Virus record (IMG/VR): IMGVR_UViG_3300025137_000014
Coordinates: 123,123 to 187,122 of that record
Length of the DNA: 64,000 nt
DNA from: a virus
Reading direction: 5' to 3' (one strand)
The notes below the pieces were generated by a model. That model saw only the letters and a list, made by a program, of their open reading frames with translations. It ran no database searches and had not been told where the DNA came from. Position 1 is the stretch's first letter; each line of letters begins with the position of its first letter. This document shows positions 7,556-49,721 of the stretch, one piece after another. Position numbers and translations under genes: made by a program.

Positions 7556-8206
7556 ATGAAAAAAGTTAAAAAAATAATGAGTACAATTATACCAGAACCC
7601 AAAGAACAACCGGCACCGACGCCTCCACCTCCGATGCCAACTCCACCAGTTCCGCCAAAGCCGGCAGGTGAGTTCTTAAGAGAAAATGGTGTATTGTTTA
7701 TGGATAAAGAATTTAATCAAGATAACTGTATGCCTCTTGTAAAAATGATTGTTGAATATAATTTGATGCCAAAAGATAAAGCACCAGAAGTTATTCACTT
7801 GTATATCAATTCACCAGGTGGGTATGTAGATAGTTGTATGCATCTAATTGATACTATCAAGCAATCACGTATACCAGTATATACGTATGGAATGGGGTCT
7901 ATTGCAAGTTGTGGTGTCATGTTAATGATGAGTGGTGCTAAAGGACATCGTTATGTTACACAAAATACCGCAGTCATGTCACATGAATTTTCAGGTGGTA
8001 CAAAAGGTCAATATCACGATATGGTAGAAAGTCGTAAACATATGGACTGGACTAACGAGAAATTAATGGAACACTATATGAAATGTACAGGCAAGACACA
8101 AGCATACATTCGTAAACATATGTTAGCACCTAAGACAGACCATTGGCTTACACCAGAAGAAGCAGTCAAGCATGGTATCGCAGACGAATTAATTACTACT
8201 TACTAA
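7556..8206 (+). CDS. clpP: ClpP-type serine protease
   Basis: 216 aa. The S14 catalytic triad is intact: Ser118 in GSIASCG, His143 in VMSHEF and Asp195 in KTDHWLT, with the YINSPGG strand at 83-89 and the C-terminal EEAVKHGIAD helix. ClpP forms a barrel that degrades proteins fed by a Clp ATPase. The first 37 residues are an unusual proline-rich tail (PTPPPPMPTPPVPPKP) in place of the normal axial loop and propeptide, which could change ATPase docking or be processed. Together with ClpX (45.1 kb) and ClpS (49.4 kb) the phage carries most of a Clp machine. It is 3 nt behind the primase and probably co-transcribed. Confidence 0.92.
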   Translation: MKKVKKIMSTIIPEPKEQPAPTPPPPMPTPPVPPKPAGEFLRENGVLFMDKEFNQDNCMPLVKMIVEYNLMPKDKAPEVIHLYINSPGGYVDSCMHLIDTIKQSRIPVYTYGMGSIASCGVMLMMSGAKGHRYVTQNTAVMSHEFSGGTKGQYHDMVESRKHMDWTNEKLMEHYMKCTGKTQAYIRKHMLAPKTDHWLTPEEAVKHGIADELITTY

Positions 8207-8216
8207 CAGATTTCTA

Positions 8217-8245
8217 TTGACTCTTGAGACAAAATCTGTTATTCT
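8217..8245 (+). promoter_or_regulatory. sigma70-type promoter of the PRPP synthetase gene
   Basis: TTGACT (8217-8222), 17-nt spacer, TATTCT (8240-8245), giving a ~27-nt leader with AAAGGTGG before ATG 8279. Confidence 0.7.
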
Positions 8246-8278
8246 AACAGTAAGAATTTTGTAACAAAGGTGGGTCTT

Positions 8279-9229
8279 ATGAAGATTATATCAGGCAATA
8301 GTAATATTGAACTGGCGGCTAAAGTAGCTGAACATTGTTTCACAGATATTGTTCCAGCAGAAATAAAGACATTCGCAGACGGTGAATGTTCAGTAGAATT
8401 TCATGAAAATATTCGAGGAGAGGATGTGTTTATTATTCAAAGCACAAGTACTCCTGTAAATGATAACTTAATGGAATTATTGGTTATGATTGATGCGGCA
8501 AAACGTAGTAGTGCTAGTCGTATCACTGCCGTAATTCCTTATTTTGGTTATGCAAGACAAGATAGAAAGAGTGCATCACGTACTCCTATCACTGCAAAGC
8601 TAGTTGCGAATCTGCTTACAAAAGCAGGCGCAAATAGAGTACTAACAATGGACTTACATGCTGGACAAATTCAAGGCTTCTTTGATATACCTGTAGATGA
8701 TTTAACAAGCAGGTTAGTTTTTGCAAAAGATATTCAAAGACAGATTAGAGTAACAGAAGAACCAATTGTATTTGTTTCACCAGATGCTGGTGGTACAGTA
8801 AGAGCAAGAAAGTTTGCTGATATGTATCATGCCAATTATGCAATAGTTGATAAACGTAGACCCAAAGCAGGCAAGGCAGAAGTAATGAACTTGATTGGTG
8901 AAGTCAAAGGCAAACATGCAATACTAGTAGACGATATTGTAGATAGTGGTGGTACACTATGTAATGCGGCTGAGGCACTATTGGATGCAGGTGCATTATC
9001 TGTTAGAGCATATATTACTCATGGAGTACTAAGTGATAATGCATGTAGTAAAATTGAAAAAAGTAAATTAGATGAACTTGTTATTACTGATAGTATCCCA
9101 TCAATTAATGAGGGTGCTTGGAAAAAGACACGGGCAGTTAGTGTTTGTGGATTATTAGGAGAAGCAATCAGACGAGTCAATAACGAAGAAAGTGTAAGTA
9201 GTTTATTTAAGGTTAAGATACATTCATGA
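8279..9229 (+). CDS. prs: ribose-phosphate pyrophosphokinase (PRPP synthetase)
   Basis: 316 aa, near full bacterial length. Recognisable blocks: [37 protein letters not shown] (ATP/ribose-5-phosphate loop), [18 protein letters not shown] and the PRPP loop [11 protein letters not shown]. It makes PRPP from ribose-5-phosphate and ATP for nucleotide and NAD synthesis. Start ATG 8279 is chosen over GTG 8270 because AAAGGTGG sits six bases before it. Phage prs genes are known from marine T4-like phages and are thought to boost nucleotide supply. It overlaps the psiE-like gene by 4 nt. Confidence 0.95.
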
Positions 9230-9651
9230 GAATTAAATTAGATTTAAATAAGATTAATAGTAGGTTACACTGGACAACACTTTATAGTGAAAAATTATTA
9301 TTAGCAATAATTGGATTGCTAACAATGGTTGCGGCTTTTACAGACATTTATGAAATGCTAATCTATTTGAAAGTAGAACTAGGCGACTTGTTCTTGCTTT
9401 TCATTTATGCAGAGATTATAGGAATGGTGGGAGCATTTTATATTAGTAATAGAATACCTGTTACTCTACCTATCATTATTGCTATGACGGCACTTTGTAG
9501 ATTAATTGTTCTACATTCAAAAGAAGCAGACCCATGGATGCTTGTTGCAGAAGCAAGTGCTATTGCAGTATTGGCAGGGGCGGCTTATCTTATGAGTGCT
9601 AAAGAAAAACTGAGTTTAGAAAAAGATAAAATACGTGAGAAAAATAAATAA
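9226..9651 (+). CDS. PsiE-like phosphate-starvation membrane protein
   Basis: 141 aa with four hydrophobic helices. The block beginning [18 protein letters not shown], then [19 protein letters not shown], matches the PsiE family (phosphate-starvation-inducible E), whose biochemical role is unknown. A charged C-terminal tail is cytoplasmic. Coupled by overlap to the PRPP synthetase gene, and in the same phage as a PiT-like phosphate permease (40.8 kb), it supports an adjustment to phosphate limitation. Confidence 0.75.
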
Positions 9652-9664
9652 GAAAGGTAATTAA

Positions 9665-10177
9665 ATGTATAAGGTAACGGCATACTTTAGAGACCATAAA
9701 GTTGTTGAAAAGTTTTATAACTTATATGATGCAATAGATTTTAGAGATAGTGCAGATGCTAATTATCCTGAAAACGTAAAATTTGAAAAGGTAATATCAA
9801 TGAGAGAATGGGTAGTAGAATGTTGGAATAGTGTAATGGATATGGAGCATAATCCACTAAAGAATATTCCAGACTTTAGCACACGACATATGATTATGCA
9901 AGTATTAGCATGGATGTGGTGTATTGCGTTTGCATTCATCGTAAGTAGTATGTGGGCAGGAGTAATTAGTATGTTTGTTCATACAGTATTACTAGGAGCC
10001 ATTGCAATCACAGTTGCTACATTTGAAACAGCAAAACGCAAGCCAACTGCATTTAACTTCATAAACGGATATAACTCACATGGTAGAGCAAGGACTTATA
10101 CTATCTGGAGAGATAAAAAAGGTAATGCACATAAAGTACAGTTAGATGCCAATGATCCAGGCGGAGAACACGAATAA
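9665..10177 (+). CDS. membrane protein of unknown function
   Basis: 170 aa. A soluble N-terminal ~70 residues (YKVTAYFRDHKVVEKFYNLYDAIDFRD) is followed by two close membrane helices around residues 77-122 and a basic, glycine-rich tail. AAGGTAA precedes the ATG. It follows the psiE-like gene by 13 nt and probably shares its transcript. No known family recognised. Confidence 0.65.
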   Translation: MYKVTAYFRDHKVVEKFYNLYDAIDFRDSADANYPENVKFEKVISMREWVVECWNSVMDMEHNPLKNIPDFSTRHMIMQVLAWMWCIAFAFIVSSMWAGVISMFVHTVLLGAIAITVATFETAKRKPTAFNFINGYNSHGRARTYTIWRDKKGNAHKVQLDANDPGGEHE

Positions 10178-10182
10178 ATCAT

Positions 10183-10211
10183 TTGACAATCATCGTTGAA
10201 CAGAGTAGAAT
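10183..10211 (+). promoter_or_regulatory. sigma70-type promoter giving a leaderless mRNA
   Basis: TTGACA (10183-10188), 17-nt spacer, TAGAAT (10206-10211), six bases (AGAAGT), then ATG 10218 of the helicase gene. Confidence 0.75.
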
Positions 10212-10217
10212 AGAAGT

Positions 10218-11621
10218 ATGGCAGAAGAAGTAAAAGATTACAATTTAGATTTACAGAAATTGTTTGTTCAGTTCATGTTAACTGATCCTGAACTTTATAC
10301 AAGAGTTAGGGCAATAGTAGAGCCTAAGTATTTTGATAGAAATCTAAGAAAAGTAGTTGAACTCTTAGTCAATCATACTGAGGAATACTCTACGATTCCA
10401 ACTACTGAAATTATTAAAGCACAAACTGGACAAGAGATAGAAAAATTAGATGATATCGGTCAACATGCAGATTGGTTTATTGATGAGTTTGAAACATTCT
10501 GTAGGCATAAGGCAATAGAAAGAGCAATCATTGATAGTGCAGACTTACTAGAGACAGGCAAATATGGTGAAGTAGAACTTAGAATTAAAGAGGCAGTACA
10601 AACTGGACTAGCCCGTTCATTAGGTACAGACTATTTTGCAGATCCTAGAGCAAGACTTGAAAAGCTAAAAGATAACAATGGTCAAATTACGACTGGTTGG
10701 AAATCATTAGACGATAAATTATATGGTGGCATCAATCGTGGTGAGATAACTATTTTTTGTGGTGGGTCTGGTGCAGGTAAATCTTTGTTTATGCAAAACA
10801 TGAGTTTGAATTGGGCAGAAGCAGGTTTAAATTGTGTATACTTTACACTTGAACTTTCAGAAGAACTATCAAGTATGCGTATGGATGCGATGCTAACAGA
10901 TAGAAGTACAAAAAGAATTTTTAAAGAATTAGATGATGTAGAATTACAAGTTAGAACTAAAGGCAAATCGTCTGGAATGTTACGTGTTAAGTATCTTCCT
11001 TCTGGTTCCACAGTTAATGATATACGTTCTTATATTAAAGAATTGCAAATACAAACTGGCAAACGAGTTGATTGTATGTGTGTAGATTACTTAGATTTAT
11101 TAATGCCAGCAACAAAGAAAGTATCAGCAAGTGATTTGTTCATTAAAGACAAATATGTAGCAGAAGAAATTCGTAATTTTGCAATGGAAACTGAGACAGT
11201 TTTAGTAACTGCATCACAATTAAATAGAAGTGCAGTAGAAGAAATTGAATTTGACCATTCTCATATCGCAGGTGGTATATCTAAAATTCAAACTGCGGAT
11301 AATGTTATTGGTATCTTTACAAGCCAAGCAATGAGAGAACGTGGACAATATCAGTTACAGCTATTAAAAACACGTTCATCAAGTGGTGTAGGTAGTAAAA
11401 TTAATCTAGTATTTGATAGAGATAGTCTTAAAATCTCAGATGATACAGAAGGGTTAACTGACGACCAAACAACGTCAAATACGATGAGTGTGGTTGATAC
11501 ATTACGACAAAAAACTACAGTAAACGCACCAGAAACTAACACAGAAGCAAAAACTGATGTTGCAATGAACTTGAGAGCAATGTTGAAGACCAAGACACGT
11601 TCTCCTTTTGATGAAAACTGA
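10218..11621 (+). CDS. replicative DNA helicase (DnaB family, T4 gp41-like)
   Basis: 467 aa. An all-helical N-terminal domain (to about 150) is followed by a RecA-type motor: Walker A GGSGAGKS at 182-189, Walker B region VDCMCVDYLDLL, a sensor block TASQLNRSAVE and LLKTRSSSGVG. It unwinds DNA as a hexamer at the phage fork and works with the primase at 6.6 kb. The start is fixed by the leaderless promoter six bases upstream. The last ~60 residues are polar and Thr-rich and may bind partners. Confidence 0.92.
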   Translation: MAEEVKDYNLDLQKLFVQFMLTDPELYTRVRAIVEPKYFDRNLRKVVELLVNHTEEYSTIPTTEIIKAQTGQEIEKLDDIGQHADWFIDEFETFCRHKAIERAIIDSADLLETGKYGEVELRIKEAVQTGLARSLGTDYFADPRARLEKLKDNNGQITTGWKSLDDKLYGGINRGEITIFCGGSGAGKSLFMQNMSLNWAEAGLNCVYFTLELSEELSSMRMDAMLTDRSTKRIFKELDDVELQVRTKGKSSGMLRVKYLPSGSTVNDIRSYIKELQIQTGKRVDCMCVDYLDLLMPATKKVSASDLFIKDKYVAEEIRNFAMETETVLVTASQLNRSAVEEIEFDHSHIAGGISKIQTADNVIGIFTSQAMRERGQYQLQLLKTRSSSGVGSKINLVFDRDSLKISDDTEGLTDDQTTSNTMSVVDTLRQKTTVNAPETNTEAKTDVAMNLRAMLKTKTRSPFDEN

Positions 11622-11627
11622 TAAATA
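11620..11627 (+). promoter_or_regulatory. late-type promoter GATAAATA
   Basis: The octamer overlaps the helicase stop codon and lies 21 nt before ATG 11649, marking the switch from replication to late genes. Confidence 0.6.
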
Positions 11628-11648
11628 CAGTTAGAACGGAGAAATATC

Positions 11649-11897
11649 ATGGATAAACCTCGTAAGAGCCTATTTGAAGAACTAAATTCTTTAGCTTTTG
11701 ATAAAGAAAAAGAACGTTTAGTGGAGCAAAAAGGTGAACATATCATATCAGGAGCGATAAATCTTATAGAATTTATCAATCGTGAGTTTGATGGCGAGAC
11801 TGCAAATGACTTAACTAAGAGATTAGTTAATAGCATTAGGTCTCAAGATCCGAGAAAGTTTAAACGTGGTATAAAAAGTGTCAAGGCTAAAACATAA
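11649..11897 (+). CDS. small phage protein of unknown function
   Basis: 82 aa, charged, helical, with a basic C-terminus (RKFKRGIKSVKAK). Good ribosome site (CGGAG). The stop overlaps the next start (TAATG), so it is coupled to the 73-aa protein. Likely a late virion or assembly protein from its promoter. Confidence 0.6.
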   Translation: MDKPRKSLFEELNSLAFDKEKERLVEQKGEHIISGAINLIEFINREFDGETANDLTKRLVNSIRSQDPRKFKRGIKSVKAKT

Positions 11898-13461: not shown

Positions 13462-13465
13462 TTAG

Positions 13466-32407: not shown

Positions 32408-33320
32408 TAAACTAAAATTACTCATAATAGGACCTGGCGCGGCCAGTAATTTTATTAGTTCAAGAATAATAAGTGCAGATACAATACAAATCGATTCAGA
32501 TACTAATGAATATTATAATGTGAGAGACTACAGTGAAATGACTGATTCAGCATTATTAGATTATATCAATAAAAATACAGTTAAGAAACCACACACTATT
32601 CATAGTTTAGAACGTGTTGCTAAATTATTAGATTCATTTGATTGGGAAACAGGAGAGCATAATTCTACTGTGCAAGGACATGAATATACTATCGCAGTAG
32701 AGAAAATTAAAGAATCGTGGGAAACATGTGAGCATAACAGAATGGCAGTTTTTTGGCTTGAATCACTCTACAAAGGCATGTATCAGTTTAAAAATATTAG
32801 TAAGCATATTGATATTTTAAATAATGCTGATTGGTGGAAAGAAGCAGAGAGATTCATATTTGATTGGCAAATTGCAGGATGGTCAATGCACTATAAAGAA
32901 GATAGTAAGTTGCATTCTATCGAACATTATTTAAGTAAAAATGAAAAAATAAATGATAAAATGGCAGAAATAGTCAACATAGGGGTGTTACATGTAGACG
33001 GAACTACTACGTCCTTTATCACAGATATACTAAATATGAAACATATGTCTGAGAATATTAAAAATAATTTACCGCCGGTATCTACATCATTGCGTCCAAA
33101 TACATATGAAATGGGCTGGGCTGATATAATATTTGATTATAAGAAGTTGTTCTTTTATAATGATCCTAAAGAACTATATAATTTATTTAACTTTTTTGAT
33201 AAGGGTAAATACTTTAAAGATAATGAGAAAAAAGAAATAAACGCATTTCGTGATTACCATATAAGAAACGTAAACTATTATGTTGATAATTGGGAACAAA
33301 TGAGCGAGGAGGCTAAATGA
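32394..33320 (+). CDS. phage protein with Rossmann-like start, unknown function
   Basis: 308 aa. The start LKLLIIGPGAASNFISSRII looks like a nucleotide-binding beta-loop-helix (GPGAAS) but no further motif supports kinase or dehydrogenase function. The protein is rich in Trp, His and Asn. It overlaps the gene before by 14 nt and the deformylase by 4. Confidence 0.6.
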   Translation: MPKSDKLKLLIIGPGAASNFISSRIISADTIQIDSDTNEYYNVRDYSEMTDSALLDYINKNTVKKPHTIHSLERVAKLLDSFDWETGEHNSTVQGHEYTIAVEKIKESWETCEHNRMAVFWLESLYKGMYQFKNISKHIDILNNADWWKEAERFIFDWQIAGWSMHYKEDSKLHSIEHYLSKNEKINDKMAEIVNIGVLHVDGTTTSFITDILNMKHMSENIKNNLPPVSTSLRPNTYEMGWADIIFDYKKLFFYNDPKELYNLFNFFDKGKYFKDNEKKEINAFRDYHIRNVNYYVDNWEQMSEEAK

Positions 33321-33832
33321 CAGTTTTAACACTGATTGATGAAACAGACAAAAGACTAAGACAAGTATGTACTAAACACAAGATAGATGATGCTACAGAA
33401 AAGCTAGTATATGATATGATTGTAACTATGCAAGATAATGATGGTATTGGTCTGGCGGCACCACAGTTAGGTGTTATGGAACAGATATTTGTCATAGGCC
33501 ATAAAGATGCAGGGTTTGTTGTTTGTATAAACCCAAGTTGGACTCCAACTACAGATGCCAAGTTAGAAAAGTTTGTAGAAGGCTGTTTAAGTTTTCCGCA
33601 TTTAGCATTGAATATAGAAAGATATAATCAAGTACATTGTACATTTACTAATTTGCAAGGTGAAATACAAACTCGTTTATTTAATGGAGTATGGGCTCAA
33701 GCAGTACAGCATGAACATGACCATTTAATGGGTATAACATTTGATAAAAGAGCAAAGACAAGTCAACTAAGCAGAGCATTAGCAAAACGTAGAGAGAAAT
33801 TAAAAAGAATTCAAAAGAGAAGCAATGATTAA
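33317..33832 (+). CDS. def: peptide deformylase
   Basis: 171 aa, standard length. All three motifs are intact: GIGLAAPQ (43-50), EGCLS (88-92) with metal ligand Cys90, and QHEHDH (131-136) with ligands His132 and His136 and catalytic Glu133. It removes the formyl group from new proteins. Marine phages are known to carry short deformylases; this one keeps a fairly full C-terminal region. With ClpS it could expose N-terminal residues to N-degron recognition. Overlaps its neighbours by 4 and 1 nt. Confidence 0.93.
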   Translation: MTVLTLIDETDKRLRQVCTKHKIDDATEKLVYDMIVTMQDNDGIGLAAPQLGVMEQIFVIGHKDAGFVVCINPSWTPTTDAKLEKFVEGCLSFPHLALNIERYNQVHCTFTNLQGEIQTRLFNGVWAQAVQHEHDHLMGITFDKRAKTSQLSRALAKRREKLKRIQKRSND

Positions 33833-36108: not shown

Positions 36109-36462
36109 ATGAAAACATCAATTATTGGACTGCTAGTCGCAGTCTTTTTTTCTGCAAACGCAATGGCAGAAGAATCAAATGTAACAACAAATATCGATTG
36201 GTCTTTAAAACTTGAAAGACAAGTAGAAGCACAAGCCAACACAGGCGAACTAATGGGTACTATGGCTGTTTTTGGACTAGACGTATCAGCAGGCGGTCTA
36301 TGGAATATTGACAAAACAGGTGAAGACTTTATTGACATGAATAAAATTATGTTGAATGCAAGTCGTTCATTGTCTGACAATGCAAGTGTCTATATAAAGA
36401 ATGATTTTGATACTGATTGGGATAGAACTGAGTCAACTATTGGTCTACAGCTTACATTTTAA
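36109..36462 (+). CDS. exported small beta protein, outer-membrane-like
   Basis: 117 aa. MKTSIIGLLVAVFFSANAMA is a Sec signal peptide with cleavage before EES. The mature ~97 residues alternate polar and hydrophobic positions in strands (WSLKLERQVEAQ; ASVYIKNDF) and end in IGLQLTF: a C-terminal Phe after a beta strand is the BAM recognition signal of outer-membrane proteins. It is far shorter than a porin, so it may be a fragment-like barrel, an oligomeric barrel or a periplasmic protein. It could block superinfection or alter permeability; both are inference. Confidence 0.65.
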   Translation: MKTSIIGLLVAVFFSANAMAEESNVTTNIDWSLKLERQVEAQANTGELMGTMAVFGLDVSAGGLWNIDKTGEDFIDMNKIMLNASRSLSDNASVYIKNDFDTDWDRTESTIGLQLTF

Positions 36463-36466
36463 TTTG

Positions 36467-36497
36467 TTGACAAAAACACCACTATAGTGTATAAATA
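36467..36497 (+). promoter_or_regulatory. promoter of the tmRNA: sigma70 boxes overlapping a late-type octamer
   Basis: TTGACA (36467-36472), 17-nt spacer, TATAAA (36490-36495), and the -10 is itself part of the late octamer TATAAATA (36490-36497). Transcription would start near 36502 from either sigma factor. Confidence 0.75.
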
Positions 36498-36501
36498 TAG
36501 A

Positions 36502-36790
36502 TGTTAACGTTGAAGCAACGTAGACACATACTGGACTGGGGGGCAGTACCCCACAGCTCCACCATAATTACTTTGTAGCGTAAAAACTACAAATTTACGG
36601 CATAGAGTAATTATGATGGGGCTGATATAGGATCGACAGGTGTGAAAGTGAAGTGGAGTTGACCGAGTGACTTCGTTATTGGTCAAAAACTATAATTGCA
36701 AACGCAAATTATCAGCCAGAAATGGCAATGGCGGCCTAATTTAGGCACGTAGGGGTTGGTGACTTACCTGGCAACAGAAAAGTCATGTTT
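36502..36790 (+). ncRNA. ssrA: tmRNA, circularly permuted two-piece form
   Basis: Acceptor piece first: T-arm stem TGGGG/CCCCA (36537-36541/36549-36553), acceptor strand CAGCTCC (36554-36560), then ACCA (36561-36564). A ~53-nt intervening segment closed by TAATTAC/GTAATTA follows, then the coding piece starting GGGGCTG (36618-36624), which pairs with CAGCTCC through a G3-U70-type wobble, the alanine identity element. GGATCGACAGG (36631-36640) matches the conserved tmRNA 5' region; GACC/GGTC (36661/36681) can form pseudoknot 1. The tag frame starts at GCA 36698 and reads ANANYQPEMAMAA then TAA (36737-36739), like alphaproteobacterial tags. It rescues stalled ribosomes and marks products for ClpX. 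The 3' end is approximate. The T-loop (GGCAGTA) lacks TTC, which is odd. Confidence 0.92.
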
Positions 36791-36816
36791 TATTTAGGAG
36801 TGGGTATTAATATCAT

Positions 36817-37155
36817 ATGGCATATGTAGTTACAGAGGATTGTATCAAATGTAAATACACAGATTGTGTAGAAGTTTGTCCAGTTGATTGTTTTTATGAA
36901 GGTGAAAATATGCTTGTTATTAATCCAGATGAGTGTATTGACTGCGGAGTATGTGAACCGGAATGCCCGGCAGAAGCTATAATACCCGATACGTCCCCAA
37001 AATTTACACAACGACTATATGATATCAATGATAAATGGTCAAGAGAATGGCCAGTCATTACAGAACAAAAAGACCCCTTACCGGATGCTGATAAACTAAA
37101 TCCAGCTATGGGATACACAGAAGATAAAGTAAAGTTGTTAGACGAATATGACTGA
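36817..37155 (+). CDS. fdxA: 7Fe ferredoxin (FdxA type)
   Basis: 112 aa. [21 protein letters not shown] and [18 protein letters not shown] carry the cysteine pattern that binds one 3Fe-4S and one 4Fe-4S cluster, as in Azotobacter ferredoxin I and alphaproteobacterial FdxA, and the C-terminal [13 protein letters not shown] also matches. It is a low-potential electron carrier. The phage's desaturase and radical SAM enzymes need such electrons. High motif identity to cellular proteins suggests recent capture from a host. It starts 26 nt after the tmRNA region. Confidence 0.95.
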
Positions 37156-39408: not shown

Positions 39409-39719
39409 ATAAGCATCAGAGAGTTTAGCGACTTAATGATTGTAGTGCAAGGAAGAGGCCTTTACCAGAGGGTCGAACTTGACTAGCTAGGGGTGGTACC
39501 CAGGTTCAAAGCTGAGAGGCCAAGAGTCACATCGCTCTACCGAGCGGAACTAGGTTCCCTTATTTCAGATGGTATCTGTGTTATGGGGTTGTAGGTATAA
39601 CCGAATCCTACCTACTTTGCTTATATTTTATGATTGCAATACCAAGCAATCAAAAATTAAGAGACGGTTGGCAAACCATATTTTTACTCACTTTCATTCA
39701 GCCAACTGTCTCTTTTTTT
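39409..39719 (+). ncRNA. unclassified structured RNA, about 310 nt
   Basis: A consensus promoter and a strong terminator bound 310 nt without a credible protein gene. It folds into a chain of near-perfect hairpins: GGGT/ACCC (39491-39501) inside GAAC/GTTC and GGCC/GGCC, then CGCTC/GAGCG (39533-39546), GGAAC/GTTCC (39546-39558), CAGAT/ATCTG (39566-39578), GTAGG/CCTAC (39591-39611) and GATTGC/GCAATC (39632-39651). I checked it by eye against RNase P, SRP RNA, 6S, T-box, tRNA and tmRNA and found no fit. A 16-codon frame (39437-39487) lies in its 5' part. Could be a regulatory or decoy RNA. Confidence 0.7.
39659..39719. terminator. Rho-independent terminator (bidirectional)
   Basis: Stem AAGAGACGGTTGGC (39659-39672) with GCCAACTGTCTCTT (39701-39714), 28-nt loop, T run after it on plus. 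On minus it follows the synthetase-like gene. Confidence 0.85.
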
Positions 39720-41907: not shown

Positions 41908-41912
41908 CATAT

Positions 41913-42916: not shown

Positions 42917-42949
42917 ATGAGTATATTAATCAAAAGAGAGGTTTATAAA

Positions 42950-43465: not shown

Positions 43466-43529
43466 ATACTAAATCAGTACTAAGCTATACGAAAGTATAA
43501 CGTAGAAGTTAAATTCTCCTTCCTATTTA

Positions 43530-43537
43530 GATAAATA
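43530..43537 (+). promoter_or_regulatory. late-type promoter GATAAATA
   Basis: Octamer 30 nt before ATG 43568. Confidence 0.65.
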
Positions 43538-43567
43538 CAGATGAGGTCTACTAAGAAGGAGAATATT

Positions 43568-45118
43568 ATGTTATTTCCAATTATCACCTTTGCTACGGCT
43601 ATTGCGATAGCTTTTATAGCCGCGTGGTTTTCAATCGTCGGACTTATGGCGATTTTTGCCGCCTCAGCAATACCAGTAGCATTAATGGCAGGTTCACTTG
43701 AAGTCGGCAAACTTATTGCCGCCTCATGGGTGTACCGTAATTGGAAGAGGGCTCCATTTCTATTAAAATTTTATTTGACAATAGCAGTTGTCGTATTGAT
43801 GTTCATCACTAGCATGGGTATTTTCGGTTTCTTATCGAAAGCACACCTAGAACAAGCCGCTCAGGGAACGGCTAACATTGCCAAGGTTGAACGTATTGAT
43901 AACGATATTATCAGGTTTAATTCAATAATAGAACGTACTGAAATCAAGATAGCTAAACTTGAGAATGAAACTAGTGATGATTCATCAGATGTCAATGCAC
44001 AGATTGATGCAGAGCAAAAACGTATGGATAATGCGTATGCTCGTATTCAGCCTGCGATTGATGAACAGTTAAACATCATTAAACAAGAACAGAAAGGTTC
44101 TGAGGACCAAGTAAAGTCGTATACTGACCAGATTAATCGTATTGACGATACTTTAGCTAAGATACAATCTTATGCTGAAAATGTCGATAATCCAGATAAT
44201 GTGAAAAAGATACAGGCTATGATTGGTACGAAAGTAGATGGAAAGTACGGATATATTACTGCTGGCAAAGTTACTAAGTATATTGAGAAATCAAATGCTG
44301 ATAAAGAAAAACTAATTGCTATTGTAGAAGATATTCGTAATTCAGTAAACACAGATATTATCGACCAGGCACGTGAAGAAATAAAACGTTTACGTGGTAT
44401 GGCAGACAGAGAAATTCAAAATGCACAAGATAATATTAATCGTCTACGAAATGTGTTAACACAAGTAGGAGAAATTGACAATACAGATGAGATAGATACT
44501 TTAGTTTTAAAGGTGTCAAATACGGAGCAGGAAATCGAAGTTCTTTATGATGAGAAATTCGAATTAGAAAGTGAAGTTAGACAACTTGAAGCAGAAGTAG
44601 GACCAATCAAGTATATTGCAGAATTAATATATGGAGAAACTAATCCCACTATTATTGATTCGGCTGTACGTTGGTTAATTATCGTCTTTATTTTTGTATT
44701 TGACCCATTGGCTGTTATTCTGTTGATTGCGGCAAACTATAGTTTTGCTAATAGAAACAATAATGAAGGCAGACAACAAGAAATGTTTGAAGGACTTTTT
44801 CACAAAAATGAAAAGAAAACGCTTGACAAAACGACCTCAATGAGCGATAATAAAGATATTGATTTAAATACAGAAACGAATGAAACTGTTGATGAAATCA
44901 AAGATGAAATTAAAGATGAAGAAGTTATAGAAAATATGGAAGAAGTTAAATCAGAAGATAAAAAGACTGGCGGTGTATATTTAGACCCAGCCGAAATTGA
45001 TTTAAAGAACATTGATGAGAAATCATTAAAAGAAATTAAATCAAAAGTAGAAAGGGAAATAAATACTAAAGCAGAGAAAAGGTCTGGCTGGTTAGATGAT
45101 TTAAGTAATGGTAAATAA
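43568..45118 (+). CDS. large membrane coiled-coil protein
   Basis: 516 aa from ATG 43568 (AAGGAG before it). Three or so membrane helices in the first 100 residues (LFPIITFATAIAIAFIAAWF; LMAIFAASAIPVALMAG; FYLTIAVVVLMFITSMG), a long coiled coil to about 355, another membrane helix (WLIIVFIFVFDPLAVILLIA), and an acidic low-complexity tail. The type recurs in large phages with unknown function. It starts the run that contains ClpX, IF-3 and bS21; there are only 17 nt to clpX. Confidence 0.65.
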   Translation: MLFPIITFATAIAIAFIAAWFSIVGLMAIFAASAIPVALMAGSLEVGKLIAASWVYRNWKRAPFLLKFYLTIAVVVLMFITSMGIFGFLSKAHLEQAAQGTANIAKVERIDNDIIRFNSIIERTEIKIAKLENETSDDSSDVNAQIDAEQKRMDNAYARIQPAIDEQLNIIKQEQKGSEDQVKSYTDQINRIDDTLAKIQSYAENVDNPDNVKKIQAMIGTKVDGKYGYITAGKVTKYIEKSNADKEKLIAIVEDIRNSVNTDIIDQAREEIKRLRGMADREIQNAQDNINRLRNVLTQVGEIDNTDEIDTLVLKVSNTEQEIEVLYDEKFELESEVRQLEAEVGPIKYIAELIYGETNPTIIDSAVRWLIIVFIFVFDPLAVILLIAANYSFANRNNNEGRQQEMFEGLFHKNEKKTLDKTTSMSDNKDIDLNTETNETVDEIKDEIKDEEVIENMEEVKSEDKKTGGVYLDPAEIDLKNIDEKSLKEIKSKVEREINTKAEKRSGWLDDLSNGK

Positions 45119-45135
45119 TAAAGAAAGCATAAACA

Positions 45136-46407
45136 TTGTCAGATAAAAAAGATTATCATTGTTCATTTTGTGGAAAGCACAAGAATGAAATTAGTACATT
45201 AATTGCAGGTCCGGCAACGTATATCTGTAATGAGTGTATTGACCTATGTCATTCTATTGTACATGAACGCAAGGATGTAACTAAAAAATCTAAAACTGTA
45301 AACAGTGACACTCCGACACCTGATGAAATTAATGAGTTTTTGAATGCTCATGTAATTGGTCAGGAAGAAGCTAAAGAAGTCTTGAGTGTGGCTGTTTACA
45401 ATCATTATAAAAGAATTTCACAACCAGAAGACGATGATGTAGAATTAGAGAAATCTAATGTAATGATGCTTGGTCCTTCTGGTACAGGTAAAACACTCTT
45501 AGCGAAAACAATCGCAAAGTTTTTAGATGTTCCTTTCGCACAAGTTGATGCGACCACATTAACAGAAAGTGGCTATGTAGGTGAAGATGTTGAGAATGTA
45601 ATTCAACGTTTACTTATGTCCTCTGATTTTGAGATTAAGAAAGCAGAACAAGGTATTATCTATATCGATGAAATAGATAAGAAAGCTAAAAAGGGTGAAA
45701 GTATTTCTATCACTAAAGATGTTAGTGGTGAAGGTGTTCAACAAGCCTTACTAAAAATTGTTGAAGGTACGGTTGTTCGTGTTCCGCCAGGTGGTGGAAG
45801 AAAACATCCCGGTGCAGAAATGCTTGAAGTTGATACAAGCAAAATATTATTCATTGTTGGTGGTGCATTTGTAGGACTTGATAAAGTAATTAAACGAAGA
45901 TTGAATGCTAATGGTTCAATTGGTTTTGGTGCTAGAGTTATGTCACAAGACAACAATGATATGAAAGTATCCCAAGAAGTATTGCCAGAAGATGTAATTA
46001 AATATGGTATTATTCCAGAATTTATGGGACGTTTTCCAATACTAGTAGGTATTAATGACTTAACAGAAATTGAGTTAAGCCGAATACTAACAGAGCCAAA
46101 GAATAATTTAACTGCACAATTTAAAAAGATTTTTAAACTAGACGGTGTAGATTTGAATTTTACTGAGGACGCAATAACAGAAATCTCTAAAATGGCAAAA
46201 ACAAATAAGACAGGAGCAAGAGGTCTTAGAAGTGTTTTAGAAAAGTCATTATTAAAACTACAATTCAAATTACCTAAGCTATCAAAGAATGCTGGCTTAA
46301 CGTCTGTTGAAATTACTGGTGACTTTATCAAAAACAAATCAGATCCAATTTTGGTATTTAAGGATGTTGTAGAGGAAACAAAAAATATAAATGAAAAGAA
46401 ACTTTAA
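45136..46407 (+). CDS. clpX: ClpX, ATPase of the ClpXP protease
   Basis: 423 aa, full length. Zinc domain cysteines 9, 12, 31, 34; Walker A GPSGTGKT (113-120); pore loop GYVG (146-149); Walker [12 protein letters not shown] loop (222-224) and the ClpP-docking loop IGF (262-264) all present. It unfolds proteins with C-terminal tags, including the tmRNA tag, and feeds them to ClpP. TTG start at 45136. The intact IGF loop means that it can dock to a ClpP, whether host or phage (7.6 kb). Complete phage-encoded ClpX is uncommon. It overlaps infC by 17 nt, forming a clpX-infC-rpsU operon. Confidence 0.96.
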
Positions 46408-46933
46408 GGAAGAAGGGCGAAAGCCTTTCGTCATTGCCAATCAACGTATTCGTGCAGACGAGTTACGTGTGGTAACAGACCAAGGTGAACAACTTGGTGT
46501 CATGCAAAAAGATGAAGCACAACAAAAGGCTGATGCCGAAGGACTAGATTTAGTTCTGATTGTTCCTAATGCAAATCCTCCAGTAGCAAAGATTATTAGT
46601 ATTAATAAATACAACTACGAAATTAAAAAACGTGACAAAGAGAAGGCAAAATTAGCCAGACAAAGTTTAGTTGAAGTTAAAGAAGTTAAGTTTAGACCAG
46701 CTATAGGTGAGAACGACCTAAAGATGAAACTTATGCAGGTTCAAAAGTTTATTGACAAAGGCAATAAAGTAAAAGTGACAATACAAATGAGAGGCAGAGA
46801 GAATTCTAAATCAAGTGAAGTTTTAGATTTCTTCAATTCCCAAATCTCTGAGTACTTAAGTAGTTTTAAGTATGACCTCCCTCTAAAAACTAATGGGAAT
46901 AGAATAATAGGTATAGTAATAAAAAATGACTAG
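46391..46933 (+). CDS. infC: translation initiation factor IF-3
   Basis: 180 aa, complete two-domain IF-3: N-terminal [18 protein letters not shown], linker [14 protein letters not shown]-terminal [20 protein letters not shown] and [11 protein letters not shown]-3 keeps the 30S subunit free and checks start codon and leader; it is known to act against leaderless mRNAs. A phage IF-3 could bias initiation to phage late messages. Overlaps clpX before and rpsU after. Confidence 0.95.
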
Positions 46934-47201
46934 TTACAATAATAGTTATAAAAGCAGAAATAACAGAAATGACAGGAACGATTTTACACAAACAGGAAAA
47001 TCAGGCCTAACAGTACATGTAAGAGACGGACAATTCGAAAGAGCATTAAGAAAGTTCAAAAAGAAAGTCCAAGAACACGGCATTATACAAGAGGTGCGTG
47101 ACAGAAAGGCTTATGTTAAACCAAGTGAAATTAAACGTAAAGCTAAGGACGCCGGCAAAAAGCGTTGGTACAGAAAAAGAAAAGAGAGTGAATTCCAATA
47201 A
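46926..47201 (+). CDS. rpsU: ribosomal protein bS21
   Basis: 91 aa. GLTVHVRDGQFERALRKFKK is the bS21 core and EIKRKAKDAGKKRWYRKRKE its basic tail; the first 25 residues are an Asn/Arg-rich extension not usual in cells. bS21 sits by the anti-Shine-Dalgarno at the 30S platform. Phage bS21 copies are known in pelagiphages and large phages and may replace the host protein. Last gene of the operon; a terminator follows at once. Confidence 0.94.
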   Translation: MTSYNNSYKSRNNRNDRNDFTQTGKSGLTVHVRDGQFERALRKFKKKVQEHGIIQEVRDRKAYVKPSEIKRKAKDAGKKRWYRKRKESEFQ

Positions 47202-47226
47202 AAAAGGGGAACCTAAGTCCCCCTTT
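47201..47226 (+). terminator. terminator of the clpX-infC-rpsU operon
   Basis: Stem GGGGA/TCCCC flanked by A and T runs (loop ACCTAAG). The loop sequence CCTAAG is shared with the terminator at 27954. Confidence 0.75.
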
Positions 47227-47248
47227 AAATATTAATGATTAGTTTTTA

Positions 47249-47566
47249 TTAGAACAAATGATTATCAGAGAATTCTTCAAAAATTGGTTGACTATCTGTA
47301 AATGCAGACATTTGAGAACCGATATCGGTTTCAATCGCAGTCATAGTTTCGTTATTTGGGTAAACAACGGTAACCATGCCTTCAAATTTATCAGTAGTCA
47401 ATTCTTCTTTATATTTTGTAGCATCGTTCAAGTCTATGCCGTTATCAGAAAGAATTGTTCTCATAAGGGTATAGTATGAATCGTAGTTATTCTCAGAAAT
47501 CAGTTGTGCATTATCATCATATTGTTTTACAATATGTGGATAAAATACTTTAGTTTCTTTAATCAT
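47249..47566 (-). CDS. phage protein of unknown function
   Basis: 105 aa, acidic, minus strand with AGGAGG ribosome site and a late-type octamer 40 nt upstream. Segment YYTLMRTILSDNGIDLNDAT is helical; no motif recognised. An isolated minus gene among plus genes, with both promoter and good ribosome site, so real. Confidence 0.6.
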   Translation of the reverse strand: MIKETKVFYPHIVKQYDDNAQLISENNYDSYYTLMRTILSDNGIDLNDATKYKEELTTDKFEGMVTVVYPNNETMTAIETDIGSQMSAFTDSQPIFEEFSDNHLF

Positions 47567-47605
47567 AATAGGTGGCCTCCTAAAAATACTGTTTGATTAT
47601 ATACT

Positions 47606-47613
47606 TATTTATC
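47606..47613 (-). promoter_or_regulatory. late-type promoter GATAAATA (minus)
   Basis: Octamer upstream of the minus gene starting at 47566. Confidence 0.6.
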
Positions 47614-47636
47614 AAAAAACATAGAAGGATATTAAA

Positions 47637-47882
47637 TTGACCATAGATTTAGACAAATTATCATTAAGAGAACTGCAACAAGAAAGCACTAGAGCATTGC
47701 TTACGCAGGACGGTACTAGTGGTGGTATATCAAAATATAACAAAAAAGCTAATCATAATAGTCAACTTTGGTACAAAGCAGTCCTAGAAGACTATATTGA
47801 GAAATATGGCGGTCTTCCTTGTGATGCAGGACCTTCGAAGGGAATTGTACTTTTTTCAGAAAAACTTGAGAAAAAGACTTGA
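47637..47882 (+). CDS. small phage protein of unknown function
   Basis: 81 aa, TTG start at 47637 after AAGGATATTAAA. Helical and polar (LSLRELQQESTRALLTQDG). Its last bases contain the -35 of the Hsp20 promoter. Not recognised. Confidence 0.5.
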   Translation: MTIDLDKLSLRELQQESTRALLTQDGTSGGISKYNKKANHNSQLWYKAVLEDYIEKYGGLPCDAGPSKGIVLFSEKLEKKT

Positions 47883-47936
47883 CATTTCTACCATTAATGA
47901 TTATATTATAATATGTACATATATTATGTATAAATA
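47879..47936 (+). promoter_or_regulatory. dual promoter of the Hsp20 gene
   Basis: Sigma70-type TTGACA (47879-47884), 17-nt spacer, TATATT (47902-47907), and 22 nt further the late octamer TATAAATA (47929-47936), so the gene can be made both early and late. AAAGGAG precedes ATG 48001. Confidence 0.65.
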
Positions 47937-48000
47937 ACTATGTAGATTGCTTTAGATAGGATCTACATTTAAATCAACTTGCTTAACAAAGGAGTAAACA

Positions 48001-48438
48001 ATGACAAACGGACTATCTATTTTTAACCAGTTACGACCTGTAACTGTAGGCTTTGACAACATGTTTGACCATTTCGAATCAATGTTCGATGGAAACGGCC
48101 CAACATTTCAAACACAAGTAAACTTCCCACCTTACAACATAGTAAAAACAGGTGATTTCACTTATGATGTAGAACTGGCACTTGCTGGTTTCTCAAAAGA
48201 TGATATTACAGTTGACTATGCTGATAACATCTTATCTGTTAAATCAATCAAAAAAGATGAGAAGAAAGAAGAAGGCGTTCTTCATAGAGGTATCTCTAAG
48301 AGAATGTTTTCTAAATCTTTCACTATCGCAGATGATGTTGAAGTAAAAGGTGCTGAGTTGAAGGACGGGTTACTAAAAGTATCTTTAGAACGTATCGTTC
48401 CAGAAGGTAAAAAGCCTCGTAATATTGAAATCTCATAG
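48001..48438 (+). CDS. Hsp20-family small heat shock protein
   Basis: 145 aa. Alpha-crystallin domain: FPPYNIVKTGDFTYDVELAL, FSKDDITVDYADNILSVKS, and LKDGLLKVSLERIVPE with the G-x-L motif, then the short basic tail. It holds unfolded proteins, forming large oligomers. Common in marine T4-like phages, where it may aid virion assembly. Confidence 0.93.
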   Translation: MTNGLSIFNQLRPVTVGFDNMFDHFESMFDGNGPTFQTQVNFPPYNIVKTGDFTYDVELALAGFSKDDITVDYADNILSVKSIKKDEKKEEGVLHRGISKRMFSKSFTIADDVEVKGAELKDGLLKVSLERIVPEGKKPRNIEIS

Positions 48439-48453
48439 TAGAAAATATTACTT

Positions 48454-48461
48454 CATAAATA
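48454..48461 (+). promoter_or_regulatory. late-type octamer variant CATAAATA
   Basis: 43 nt before ATG 48505; followed by a GCGAGG...CCTCGC hairpin (about 48465-48486) in the leader that may also end the Hsp20 message. Confidence 0.45.
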
Positions 48462-48504
48462 GAAGCGAGGGCTAGTTCCTCGCTTCCTCATGGAGTAATA
48501 TAAA

Positions 48505-49362
48505 ATGAATAAACATACATCTGTATGGTGTCAACCCAGGTCAGGGTCGTCTGCATACTGTAATCATCTAAAAAAAACTAGAAAAGTATTTTCTGACTCT
48601 GCACAAGAGTTTATGTCTGCCTCTCAATTTTGGCCTATGTTGCAAGAACCAGGAACAGACTCAGCAGACAATTTTAAAATGTCAATAGAAAGTTTTCCAT
48701 ACGATAACGAATTAAGAATTAAACTTAAACATGACGCATATAAGATTTATGATAATATAAAAAATACACATAATCCAAAGTGGTTATGGACAGATTGGAA
48801 ACTGACTGATAAAGGTATTAAGCCTTATTATACTAGAAGTATACCAAGACATTATTTAGAAGACACATTCCCTTCAAGACCATGGGCACAAGAACTACTC
48901 ACACAATCAAAAGTACCAGAAGTAATAAAGTTATATAATTATGATAATTTTCAATTTGAAGATATTGCATATGATACAAATCATCATTTATTAATTAGAG
49001 AGCCGTTAGATAACGCATTAAGTCAGATTGTTGCATATATAACTATGGTATGGCATCAAGAAAGTAATGATGAAAATAAAGTAAGAATTAAAGAAACAAT
49101 TAGTTTTAAGCCTATAAAAAATGACCCTCATAAGAAAACACCATATCAAATAGCAGAGTATTGTTTTAAATCTAATATTGATATGTTGGAACAGTTGGGG
49201 GACAAAGTAGATGTTATAGCAAAGTATGAGGATATGGAATTTAAAAATAATCGTTATAAGAAAATGCATACATTACGAGAGAAATTAGCAGTGTGTTCAG
49301 ATTTACATTTCTTAGACGATATGAGAAATAACTATAATAAAAGACTTGATTCATTACTCTAA
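48505..49362 (+). CDS. sulfotransferase-like protein
   Basis: 285 aa. SVWCQPRSGSSAYCNHL at the N-terminus is the PAPS-binding loop (PRSGSS); HLLIREPLDNALSQIVAY is the R-x(n)-S 3'-phosphate binding motif. It would move sulfate from PAPS onto a sugar or protein. An APS kinase at 55.5 kb could supply PAPS. Late-type promoter, so it may act on virions or late envelope. Confidence 0.75.
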   Translation: MNKHTSVWCQPRSGSSAYCNHLKKTRKVFSDSAQEFMSASQFWPMLQEPGTDSADNFKMSIESFPYDNELRIKLKHDAYKIYDNIKNTHNPKWLWTDWKLTDKGIKPYYTRSIPRHYLEDTFPSRPWAQELLTQSKVPEVIKLYNYDNFQFEDIAYDTNHHLLIREPLDNALSQIVAYITMVWHQESNDENKVRIKETISFKPIKNDPHKKTPYQIAEYCFKSNIDMLEQLGDKVDVIAKYEDMEFKNNRYKKMHTLREKLAVCSDLHFLDDMRNNYNKRLDSLL

Positions 49363-49377
49363 AAATGATATAATTCA

Positions 49378-49385
49378 GATAAATA
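49378..49385 (+). promoter_or_regulatory. late-type promoter GATAAATA
   Basis: Octamer 21 nt before ATG 49407 of clpS. Confidence 0.65.
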
Positions 49386-49406
49386 GTTTAGACAGTGAGA
49401 AAATAA

Positions 49407-49721
49407 ATGCAAACACAAAACGATAGCGAAACAATAGTTGATTCATCTTCTAGGACTTCAATAGAACCCCCTAAAAGATACTATGTTGTTATGCATAATG
49501 ATGATGGTACGCCTATCGAATTTGTAGTAAAAATATTAATGGACCTGTACAAACACGAAGAACAAACGGCGACTGACTTAGCAAATAAAATTCACGTAGA
49601 TGAAAAAGCTATTGTCGGTATGTTCAATTTAGAAATAGCAGAACAGAAGGTGGAAGAGACTCACGGAGCAAGTAGGGCGCATGGTTACCCATTAACGGTG
49701 ACATTAGAACAAGCAGATTAA
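49407..49721 (+). CDS. clpS: ClpS, N-degron adaptor
   Basis: 104 aa. YYVVMHNDDGTPIEFVVKIL carries the NDD-x-T-P motif that binds N-terminal residues; the His in KIHVDEKAIVG is the second ligand, and IAEQKVEETHGASRAHGYPL completes the domain. ClpS delivers N-degron proteins to ClpA and at the same time slows ClpA work on tmRNA-tagged proteins. No ClpA is seen here, so it must use host ClpA or a new partner. A flexible, Ser/Thr-rich N-terminal extension is kept, as needed for the ClpA effect. Confidence 0.94.
   Translation: MQTQNDSETIVDSSSRTSIEPPKRYYVVMHNDDGTPIEFVVKILMDLYKHEEQTATDLANKIHVDEKAIVGMFNLEIAEQKVEETHGASRAHGYPLTVTLEQAD

Follow-up and report, generated by a model that had tools for sequence, protein, structure and literature searches.

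A conserved ClpX-IF3-bS21-Hsp20-ClpS gene cassette in a marine T4-like phage and its relatives

Core cassette

The window analysed is a 64,000-nucleotide stretch of a 187-kb viral record (IMG/VR record IMGVR_UViG_3300025137_000014), and its source is a T4-like marine phage that counts PA5oct and Atu_ph07, both jumbo phages, and Rak2-like phages among its relatives. Positions 45136-49721 hold a 4.6-kb cassette of same-strand genes in the order ClpX, IF3, bS21, Hsp20 and ClpS, with ClpX first and ClpS last. The first gene (45136..46407, + strand) begins with a TTG start and encodes a ClpX unfoldase with the Pfam domains zf-C4_ClpX and AAA_2, scoring 549 bits against TIGR00382 (cut-off 371) and matching its best PDB entry with an E-value of 7.6e-143. 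The C4 zinc-binding domain (PF06689) scores 57.5 bits over a cut-off of 27, and both CxxC pairs are present in 83/83 aligned phage ClpX proteins, with the usual spacing in 81. The window ClpX features Walker A and B motifs, a GYVG pore loop, an RKH loop, sensor 2 and a ClpP-docking loop that reads IGF; Walker A, GYVG and IGF had been listed in the original prediction, made from the DNA letters alone, and all three appear in the translation and the alignment. GYVG is found in all 83 phage ClpX proteins, as is a docking loop of the form [IMVF]GF (IGF 68, MGF 13, VGF 1, FGF 1). The RKH-loop position is more variable (RKH 63, RKN 17, other 3), and in the last three proteins it is unrecognisable or altered (GGRRHP, GGKKNA and, in PA5oct, SNSMFS), so tag reading may differ among these phages, PA5oct included.

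The ClpX gene is followed by a gene for translation initiation factor IF3 (46391..46933, +) that overlaps its end by 17 nt, and the product contains both the IF3_N and IF3_C domains (TIGR00168, 144.8 bits, cut-off 60). The next gene (46926..47201, +) overlaps IF3 by 8 nt and encodes ribosomal protein bS21 with an N-terminal extension, identified by Pfam (52 bits, cut-off 27) and TIGR00030 (57 bits, cut-off 29). An Hsp20 small heat-shock protein (Pfam HSP20; PHROG 432) is encoded at 48001..48438 (+). These three genes, the nearest neighbours of ClpX, had been overlooked in the original prediction. The final gene (49407..49721, +) encodes the ClpS adaptor, with a Pfam ClpS score of 87.5 bits (cut-off 23) that lies beside scores under every NCBIfam ClpS cut-off; the NDD and His ligands attributed to it earlier are both present. 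Across 74 phage ClpS proteins, N34 is conserved in 73, T38 in 74, H66 in 72, E79 in 74 and K84 in 73, which we take to be N-degron pocket and ClpA-contact residues (E79 and K84 presumably being the ClpA contacts), and M40 and M62 are variable. Directly upstream of ClpX, a gene at 43541..45118 (+) encodes a membrane and coiled-coil protein found in 43/45 lineages. Searches of NCBIfam and PHROG gave no match for it, a Tetraspanin match was sub-threshold, and its predicted model is of low confidence (pTM 0.35) and too poor for a fold search.

Conservation of the cassette was examined in 45 ClpX lineages from viral contigs, clustered at 90% identity and each with at least 9 kb downstream of ClpX. 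ClpS lies downstream in 44/45 lineages, Hsp20 and bS21 each in 43/45, and IF3 in 31/45, a co-occurrence beyond chance, and the order of the core genes is maintained down to approximately 50% ClpX identity. IF3 adjoins ClpX in relatives, at a distance of -91 to +66 nt in representatives of 39 clusters when the first possible start codons are used. The dN/dS values range from 0.04 to 0.33 (0.08-0.10 for ClpX), showing selection against amino-acid change. ClpS was found in 47/50 records chosen for ClpX, and the two genes lie in a single cluster, which agrees with the original view that these viral genes form a coherent and conserved set for protein fate. Scanning in the opposite direction, from ClpS, gave 24 usable loci having 2.9 kb or more of upstream sequence, and no contig among them lacked ClpX; as a control this is weak, since the ClpX scan had already yielded 23 of these 24 contigs. 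Companion-gene counts rest on ClpX-selected records, most of them fragments; a TerL-chosen control set held few long contigs and was left out of the counts. Matches resembling T4 late promoters around the cassette were too weak to use, as were those of sigma-70 type (37 versus a shuffled mean of 30.6).

ClpP-type genes

Two ClpP-type genes are encoded in the 187-kb record. The gene at 7556..8206 (+) encodes a divergent ClpP-like serine protease that scores 119 bits with Pfam and falls under the NCBIfam ClpP cut-offs. Its Ser, His and Asp triad is complete, as originally claimed, but the protein is not a canonical ClpP: a Pro-rich stretch takes the place of the N-terminal axial loop, and the docking cleft is altered (F82 to Q, L114 to T). 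It was rejected as an obvious partner of ClpX on these grounds, and it is a divergent ClpP paralogue that probably does not serve ClpX. A canonical ClpP (260 bits) is encoded at 48214-48819 of the record, beyond the limits of the window, scoring 305 bits over the PRK00277 cut-off of 249 and 288 bits against TIGR00493, short of 308.6. This protein retains F82, Y62, F112 and L114 of the cleft, with Y60 changed to H, I90 to M, M92 to L and L189 to I, and the triad and axial loop are present in the canonical ClpP of all 15 records holding one. It is the likelier partner of ClpX. A role for ClpP as prohead protease was rejected, as the record encodes a head maturation protease (PHROG 207) along with the major head protein (PHROG 138).

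tmRNA, deformylase and ClpA

A two-piece (permuted) alpha-type tmRNA is located at 36454..36788 (+), matching Rfam RF01849 (alpha_tmRNA) over its full length with 122 bits against a gathering score of 50 and carrying a permuted tRNA-like domain; ARAGORN places it at 36471-36830. The called tag is ANANYQPEMAMAA, with tag codons and stop at 36698-36739, and it ends in Ala-Ala as had been read from the letters. The tag ends in A(L/M)AA in 21/21 called phage tmRNAs. The third acceptor pair of the window tmRNA is G-U, and a pattern scan for the alanine identity pair G3-U70 found G-U in 27/28 phage loci, Phosso having no pattern match. Alpha-type tmRNA is present in 28/50 ClpX-selected records (E <= 0.001). 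With the one-piece model RF00023, matches in the 51 records were many but all stayed below the gathering score. SmpB was found in 0/51 records, and ribosome rescue would therefore need host SmpB. The conserved tag ends, together with the GYVG and docking loops of ClpX, make it possible that phage ClpX reads the phage tag. The alpha-type RNA also hints at an alphaproteobacterial link, a kind of hint that can mislead, as the example of Methylophilales phage Melnitz illustrates. A ClpX scan of genome contigs returned 12 bacterial loci; because these belong to mixed phyla, with a best identity of 54%, no host is proposed.

The peptide deformylase gene (33317..33832, +) scores 126 bits with Pfam and 105.5 bits with TIGR00079 (cut-off 104), and the three motifs reported for it were recovered as GIGLAAPQ, EGCLS and HEHDHL (pattern GxGxAAPQ, EGCLS, HExDHL). 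No ClpA was found in the 187-kb record, as the original prediction stated, but a close relative of 342 kb encodes ClpA in a stretch without a match in this record. The 187-kb record is linear, often the sign of a fragment, and probably lacks ClpA through being incomplete. Among relatives, DnaJ precedes ClpA in 17/17 cases, 9 of them with deformylase directly between the two; deformylase lies directly upstream of ClpA in 9/10 records holding both, which supports its link to the ClpS/ClpA arm in these phages. IGF is present in 14/15 ClpA frames examined. The Clp_N profile alone undercounts ClpA (15/51 records, versus 17/51 by ClpA protein), missing for instance the Phosso ClpA; the record sets behind the two counts differ by one member, Melnitz in the Clp_N set and PA5oct in the ClpA-protein set. 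Aat was found in 0/51 phage records.

The genes originally listed are real and intact by family profile scores and motifs. They were described as spread over 42 kb, but ClpX and ClpS share the one 4.6-kb cassette. Co-occurrence in related phages holds for the core cassette; tmRNA (28/50 records), deformylase (21/51) and ClpP (28/50) are frequent companions of ClpX, yet not constant. The observation is accordingly partly confirmed, and the interpretation placed on it partly supported.

Comparison with known phages

Pseudomonas phage PA5oct (MK797984; Arenbergviridae) keeps the gene order seen here, as ClpX-bS21-(2 ORFs)-Hsp20-ClpS, and its TerL is the closest in the phage collection (55%). The PA5oct cassette differs in having no IF3, a statement that covers the cassette only. 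DnaJ-ClpA is at a separate place, with ClpA among genes annotated as structural; there is no deformylase match, and in its ClpX the docking loop reads MGF and no RKH can be recognised. Several neighbours in the PA5oct record have a mass-spectrometry note, and ClpX, bS21, Hsp20 and ClpS have none, so that record shows no trace of these four products.

Sinorhizobium phage Phosso (PV764938) resembles the phage described here in its ClpX-IF3 and Hsp20-TK-ClpS arrangements and its two ClpP-type genes, and it also has DnaJ-deformylase-ClpA and an alpha-type tmRNA, but its ClpX-IF3 and Hsp20-ClpS are separated by approximately 14 kb. Phosso and Sinorhizobium phage AP-J-162 are soil jumbo phages of approximately 470 kb, unlike the marine phage here. 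For AP-J-162, the available text describes ClpX beside IF-3, along with tmRNA, S21, Hsp20, DnaJ, deformylase and six Clp ORFs, and its authors regard ClpX as a replication regulator (PMC11242549). In the circular record of Agrobacterium phage Atu_ph07 (MF403008), ClpX-IF3 and bS21-Hsp20-TK-ClpS (bS21 by Pfam) occupy opposite ends, so that the two cassette parts run together across the junction. This phage shares ClpP and DnaJ-ClpA, differs in having no match for alpha-type tmRNA or deformylase, and carries variants in ClpX (FGF and RKN) and ClpS (Glu at position 66).

The marine T4-like phage Melnitz likewise has a two-piece alpha-type tmRNA, and in the text available its authors suggest that host proteins are tagged for degradation and also report a glutamine riboswitch (PMC9004378). 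Searches of Melnitz for IF3, ClpP, ClpS, Clp_N and SmpB gave no match. Huge phages are reported to encode IF1, IF3, S21, deformylase and tmRNA, as here, and also SmpB, which was found in none of the present records; in the main text of that paper 'clp' occurs 0 times (PMC7162821). Single genes of the set are already known in jumbo phages, and ClpX beside IF-3 is in print (PMC11242549). Neither ClpX-bS21-Hsp20-ClpS nor deformylase-ClpA was found described as one unit in the open-licence PMC literature; in the parts of that literature available, phage Clp genes are treated singly and assigned to replication, assembly, stress or an adaptor role for host ClpAP.

Proposed function of the module

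The same set and order in many related viruses suggests a lasting role in controlling protein making and removal, and the two fixed cassettes, the core one and DnaJ-(deformylase)-ClpA, suggest that genes for translation and for protein turnover are held together by selection. The reading to which we give about even weight is that of a long-retained module coupling translation-initiation control to protein unfolding and turnover, within which a putative tag-and-destroy route is plausible. We infer its complexes, substrates, timing and benefit, and its most likely operation would be as follows. Phage IF3 and bS21 would join ribosomes at initiation and give phage messages an advantage. The phage tmRNA, working with SmpB and alanyl-tRNA synthetase of the host, could release ribosomes that stall on broken mRNA, a rescue that would add a tag ending in -AMAA. 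Phage ClpX would use its IGF loop to dock on the canonical ClpP of the phage, encoded outside the window, or on host ClpP, and the pair may unfold and destroy tagged and other proteins. ClpS may pass proteins with destabilising N-termini to ClpA, which several relatives encode themselves (as DnaJ-deformylase-ClpA or DnaJ-ClpA) and which would elsewhere come from the host, and Hsp20 and DnaJ would hold or feed unfolded clients. Many core-bearing records are without tmRNA, ClpP or deformylase, so the full route would not be obligatory.

A possible but doubtful alternative is a chaperone or remodelling module, in which ClpX, ClpA, DnaJ and Hsp20 fold or remodel proteins of phage replication or of the virion, with ClpP playing no essential part. 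It is consistent with the 22/50 ClpX-selected records without a ClpP match, although many of these are fragments and host ClpP could stand in, and with the position of the PA5oct ClpA among structural genes. In the available texts, the authors on Atu_ph07 (PMC6102473) and AP-J-162 (PMC11242549) prefer replication or assembly roles, and translocase or assembly roles of ClpA and ClpX have been suggested (PMC7824862). Retention of the [IMVF]GF docking loop in 83/83 ClpX proteins and of IGF in 14/15 ClpA frames argues otherwise, as do the separate head maturation protease and the identity of the most constant partner, ClpS (44/45), a degradation adaptor. That same constancy of ClpS is left unexplained if the genes simply add to host proteostasis and so carry the infected cell alive through the phage translation burst, with no specific substrates and no tag-and-destroy, and so is the close association with IF3, bS21, deformylase and IF1. 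We consider this stress-buffering role unlikely, even though Hsp20 and DnaJ belong to the cassettes and the Atu_ph07 authors, in the text available, propose helping the host survive infection stress (PMC6102473).

Decidedly unlikely is a self-contained, ribosome-linked N-terminal quality-control route, which would make initiation-factor capture and protein destruction one takeover device. Deformylase and ClpA, whose genes overlap or abut downstream of DnaJ, often with IF1 nearby, would act with ClpS produced together with ClpX, IF3 and bS21; chains would be read at initiation or deformylation, and selected host or faulty proteins would go to ClpAP. If this were true, the deformylase-ClpA pair would point to ClpA as a protease sensing the N-terminal methionine state. 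The idea that the cassettes couple translation to turnover would itself bear on which bacterial protease follows N-terminal formyl-methionine status. Work on fMet proteolysis, in its available text, leaves a ClpP-containing protease open, judges ClpXP an improbable candidate and points to FtsH in the case of one substrate (PMC4745127).

The original model in unchanged form is very improbable. It held that phage ClpX and the ClpP encoded at 7556 take tmRNA-tagged proteins and that phage ClpS redirects host ClpA for want of a phage one. The genes are intact, the tag ends suit ClpX, and ClpS retains the positions taken as ClpA contacts. Phage ClpS bringing targets to host ClpAP has also been proposed in the available part of PMC7824862. 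Against the model, the 7556 protein is probably not the partner of ClpX, with its axial loop and normal cleft missing, tmRNA is not constant, and relatives, the 342-kb one among them, encode their own ClpA, which weakens the case for redirection. A chance collection of accessory genes, suggested by the varying presence and position of tmRNA, deformylase and ClpP, is hardly credible for a core cassette whose order is kept over such divergence.

The proposed coupling of translation-initiation control to protein turnover is testable because PA5oct has both ClpX-bS21-Hsp20-ClpS and DnaJ-ClpA, and the records of its near relatives name the laboratory strain PAO1 as host.

Genome and relatives

The window occupies bases 123123–187122 of a virus record totalling 187,122 bases. 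The record matches head maturation protease and major head protein PHROGs, which we take to be T4-type, and by sequence the virus is T4-like. The best matches of its terminase in the phage collection are PA5oct (55%), Phosso (Sinorhizobium phage PV764938) and Atu_ph07 (50–51%) and Rak2-like phages (~45%), which indicates kinship with these jumbo phages. A close relative, G001, is a 342,607-base record whose ClpX is 92% identical to that of the window. The fetched stretches of G001 at 160–172 and 247–302 kb match the present record at offsets of 118.6–123.0 kb. Comparison of the two records found no match to the ClpA stretch of G001 (12.5–18.5 kb), and the DnaJ/deformylase-ClpA cassette of relatives is absent from the window. 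Part of the genome may be missing from the record, and this part may be where the second (ClpA) cassette is located.

Core cassette

The original prediction proposed a phage tag-and-destroy route that operates without a phage ClpA. The genes on which it was built (ClpX, ClpS, deformylase, tmRNA and a ClpP-fold gene) were all found, open, where it had placed them. ClpX and ClpS belong to a core cassette with the order ClpX-IF3-bS21-Hsp20-ClpS (45136–49721, + strand). IF3 begins 17 nt upstream of the ClpX stop codon, and bS21 begins 8 nt upstream of that of IF3; Hsp20 and then ClpS follow downstream of bS21 on the same strand.

Relatives were chosen by ClpX alone in viral contigs, the best 80 of 142 being used, and neighbouring genes were placed by tblastn and iterated profiles. 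The resulting set of 83 ClpX sequences consists of 79 of the 80 loci (one partial was dropped) together with the window, Phosso, Atu_ph07 and PA5oct. It forms 56 clusters at 90% identity, and counts were made on the 45 clusters whose contigs extend 9 kb or more past ClpX; the three isolates fall outside these 45. Among these clusters from the best 80 of 142 relatives, ClpS is encoded within 10 kb of ClpX in 44/45, Hsp20 in 43/45, bS21 in 43/45 and IF3 in 31/45, with bS21, Hsp20 and ClpS all present in 40. Hsp20 is missing from L054/L055 and L045, and bS21 from L053 and L063. The single ClpS gap is L026, whose ClpS sits further off in its record. The window bS21 as query recovered bS21 in 63/82 loci, and profiles alone added nine loci and Atu_ph07, all ten above the Pfam cut-off. 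Taking first possible starts, IF3 begins between −91 and +66 nt from the ClpX stop in 39 cluster representatives, and the ClpX to bS21 spacing is −72 to +28 nt in 14 clusters without IF3. Upstream of ClpX, a membrane/coiled-coil gene (43541–45118, + strand) is present in 43/45 clusters from the same selection and missing from L047 and L075/L078. Its product, a membrane protein with a long coiled coil, partly matches 13 phage records, Pelagibacter phage Mosig among them.

Reverse scans from ClpS with two queries reached 32 loci. ClpX lies upstream in 24/24 loci with at least 2.9 kb. A further locus, with 2.2 kb upstream, contains a partial ClpX; the remaining seven have too little upstream sequence. 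These scans reached close relatives only, and 23 of the 24 contigs were already in the ClpX set, so they add one new contig and no counter-example.

Among the isolates, PA5oct has the order ClpX-bS21-ORF-ORF-Hsp20-ClpS, and Phosso has ClpX-IF3, a gap of ~14 kb, then Hsp20-thymidine kinase-ClpS. The circular record of Atu_ph07 carries, on one strand, ClpX-IF3 at its start and bS21-ORF-ORF-Hsp20-thymidine kinase-ClpS at its end. A tblastn search of the phage collection (50,697 records) with window queries matched ClpX in 188, IF3 in 71 and ClpS in 14 records; the last figure is an undercount, because Atu_ph07 has ClpS yet falls outside the 14.

Pairs with two close relatives gave dN/dS values of 0.04–0.33 for ClpX, IF3, bS21, Hsp20, ClpS and both ClpPs, the canonical ClpP being represented by one relative. 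The top value belongs to ClpS (0.33 against one relative, 0.10 against the other). These values indicate that the tested genes are maintained by selection.

ClpX and ClpS residues

GYVG and [IMVF]GF are present in all 83 ClpX sequences. The RKH loop reads RKH in 63, RKN in 17 (e.g. L053, L067, L088 and L090) and otherwise in three, including PA5oct, where it is not recognisable. An RKN or unrecognisable loop may mark altered substrate recognition. In 74 ClpS sequences, the residues that we take to bind the N-degron (N34 in 73, T38 in 74, H66 in 72) and to contact ClpA (E79 in 74, K84 in 73) are kept. This favours, rather than proves, ClpA of phage or host as the ClpS partner over ClpX. The pocket His is replaced by Glu in Atu_ph07 (locus L261, 4272–4649, − strand) and by Gln in L045 (12217–12528), a possible change of N-terminal specificity.

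Two ClpP-type genes

The genome encodes two ClpP-type genes. The window copy (7556) has the fold and intact catalytic triad of the predicted ClpP, but its axial loop is replaced by a proline-rich start, and the match to the ClpP model begins only at about residue 45. Where E. coli ClpP has F82 and L114 in its docking cleft, this copy has Gln and Thr. The canonical copy lies outside the window (record 48214–48819), with the start LVPMV...GERSFDI...SRLLKER, the triad and F82 kept; four further cleft residues are altered more mildly. Viral ClpPs split cleanly into 15 canonical and 15 divergent copies, some of them identical and with three more divergent matches left out. The triad is present in all 30 and the axial loop in canonical copies only. 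At position 82 the canonical copies have Phe or Tyr, the divergent ones Gln, Gly or Ser.

tmRNA

The tmRNA is a two-piece, alpha-type molecule with the tag ANANYQPEMAMAA. ARAGORN called 21 tmRNAs in 28 loci (window included), leaving seven without a call. The Ala-Ala ending of the tag is shared by the 21 called tmRNAs, whose 13 different tags all end in A(L/M)AA. In 27 of the 28 loci the acceptor stem has G-U as its third pair. Alpha-type tmRNA occurs in 29/51 records including the Methylophilales phage Melnitz (27 above the gathering score), and is therefore common, not fixed. SmpB was found in 0 of the 51 records searched. PMC9004378 describes the two-piece alpha-type tmRNA of Melnitz and already suggests host-protein tagging.

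Second cassette in relatives

Clp_N was detected in 15/51 records, and a ClpA protein query gave 17/51, with PA5oct replacing Melnitz. A J-domain gene directly precedes ClpA or deformylase-ClpA in 17/17 records with ClpA; 15 calls come from inspection of the open frames, where the HPD motif was recognised by eye (Pfam agreeing in 4/4 tested), and two from annotation. Deformylase is found in 21/51 records, ten of which also have ClpA, and it abuts or overlaps ClpA behind DnaJ in nine of these ten, the exception being G001. The G001 ClpA keeps both Walker A motifs as well as the IGF loop, which 14/15 ClpA frames inspected contain, and its best family is TIGR02639 at 902 bits, below the cut-off of 993.

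IF1 is encoded in 10/51 records, nine times at ~1.2–2.5 kb upstream of ClpA, as in L252 (660–894), L307 (1881–2102) and L308 (1746–1967), where this phage-encoded factor precedes DnaJ-ClpA. It is more frequent where the ClpX cassette lacks IF3 (8/12 vs 2/39 with IF3; Fisher p 3e-5, a figure inflated by related records and with PA5oct scored as IF3-less from its cassette alone). A further Clp/initiation-factor neighbourhood is the row divergent ClpP-MutT-like-IF1 of Phosso (115020–116365).

Interpretation

What can be said most safely is that these phages maintain fixed cassettes in which initiation genes (IF3, bS21, sometimes IF1), a gene for N-terminal processing (deformylase) and protein-handling genes (ClpX, ClpS, Hsp20, ClpA, DnaJ) are grouped. 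ClpP and tmRNA are encoded at other places in the genomes. From the known functions of these protein families, it is proposed that the phage would capture ribosomes and, in addition, tag and turn over proteins. The main competing explanation is that the proteins act as unfoldases, with no proteolysis involved. Confidence in the readings rests on the cassette's constancy and gene order, not on the reverse ClpS scan. A literature search of open-licence PMC found no published description of the ClpX-bS21-Hsp20-ClpS cassette or the deformylase-ClpA pairing. PMC11242549 already places ClpX next to IF-3, and PMC7824862 presents ClpS as a host-ClpAP adaptor. The individual genes have likewise been published, as has the idea that IF3 may act in ribosome rescue (PMC11242549, PMC6102473, PMC7824862 and PMC7162821).

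Other features of the window

A manA RNA motif (RF01745) is located at 39424–39621 (+ strand; 58.1 bits, gathering score 55.2). Genes for an acyl carrier protein and a 4Fe-4S ferredoxin are found at 1297–1644 (− strand) and 36817–37155 (+ strand), respectively. A TctA-type tricarboxylate transporter membrane subunit (TctA Pfam, 293 bits) and a preceding TctC-like gene occupy 51341–53915 (+ strand). The TctC-like secreted binding protein, directly before TctA, was assigned by eye and has no Pfam match. The pair represents nutrient uptake, which is unusual for a phage.
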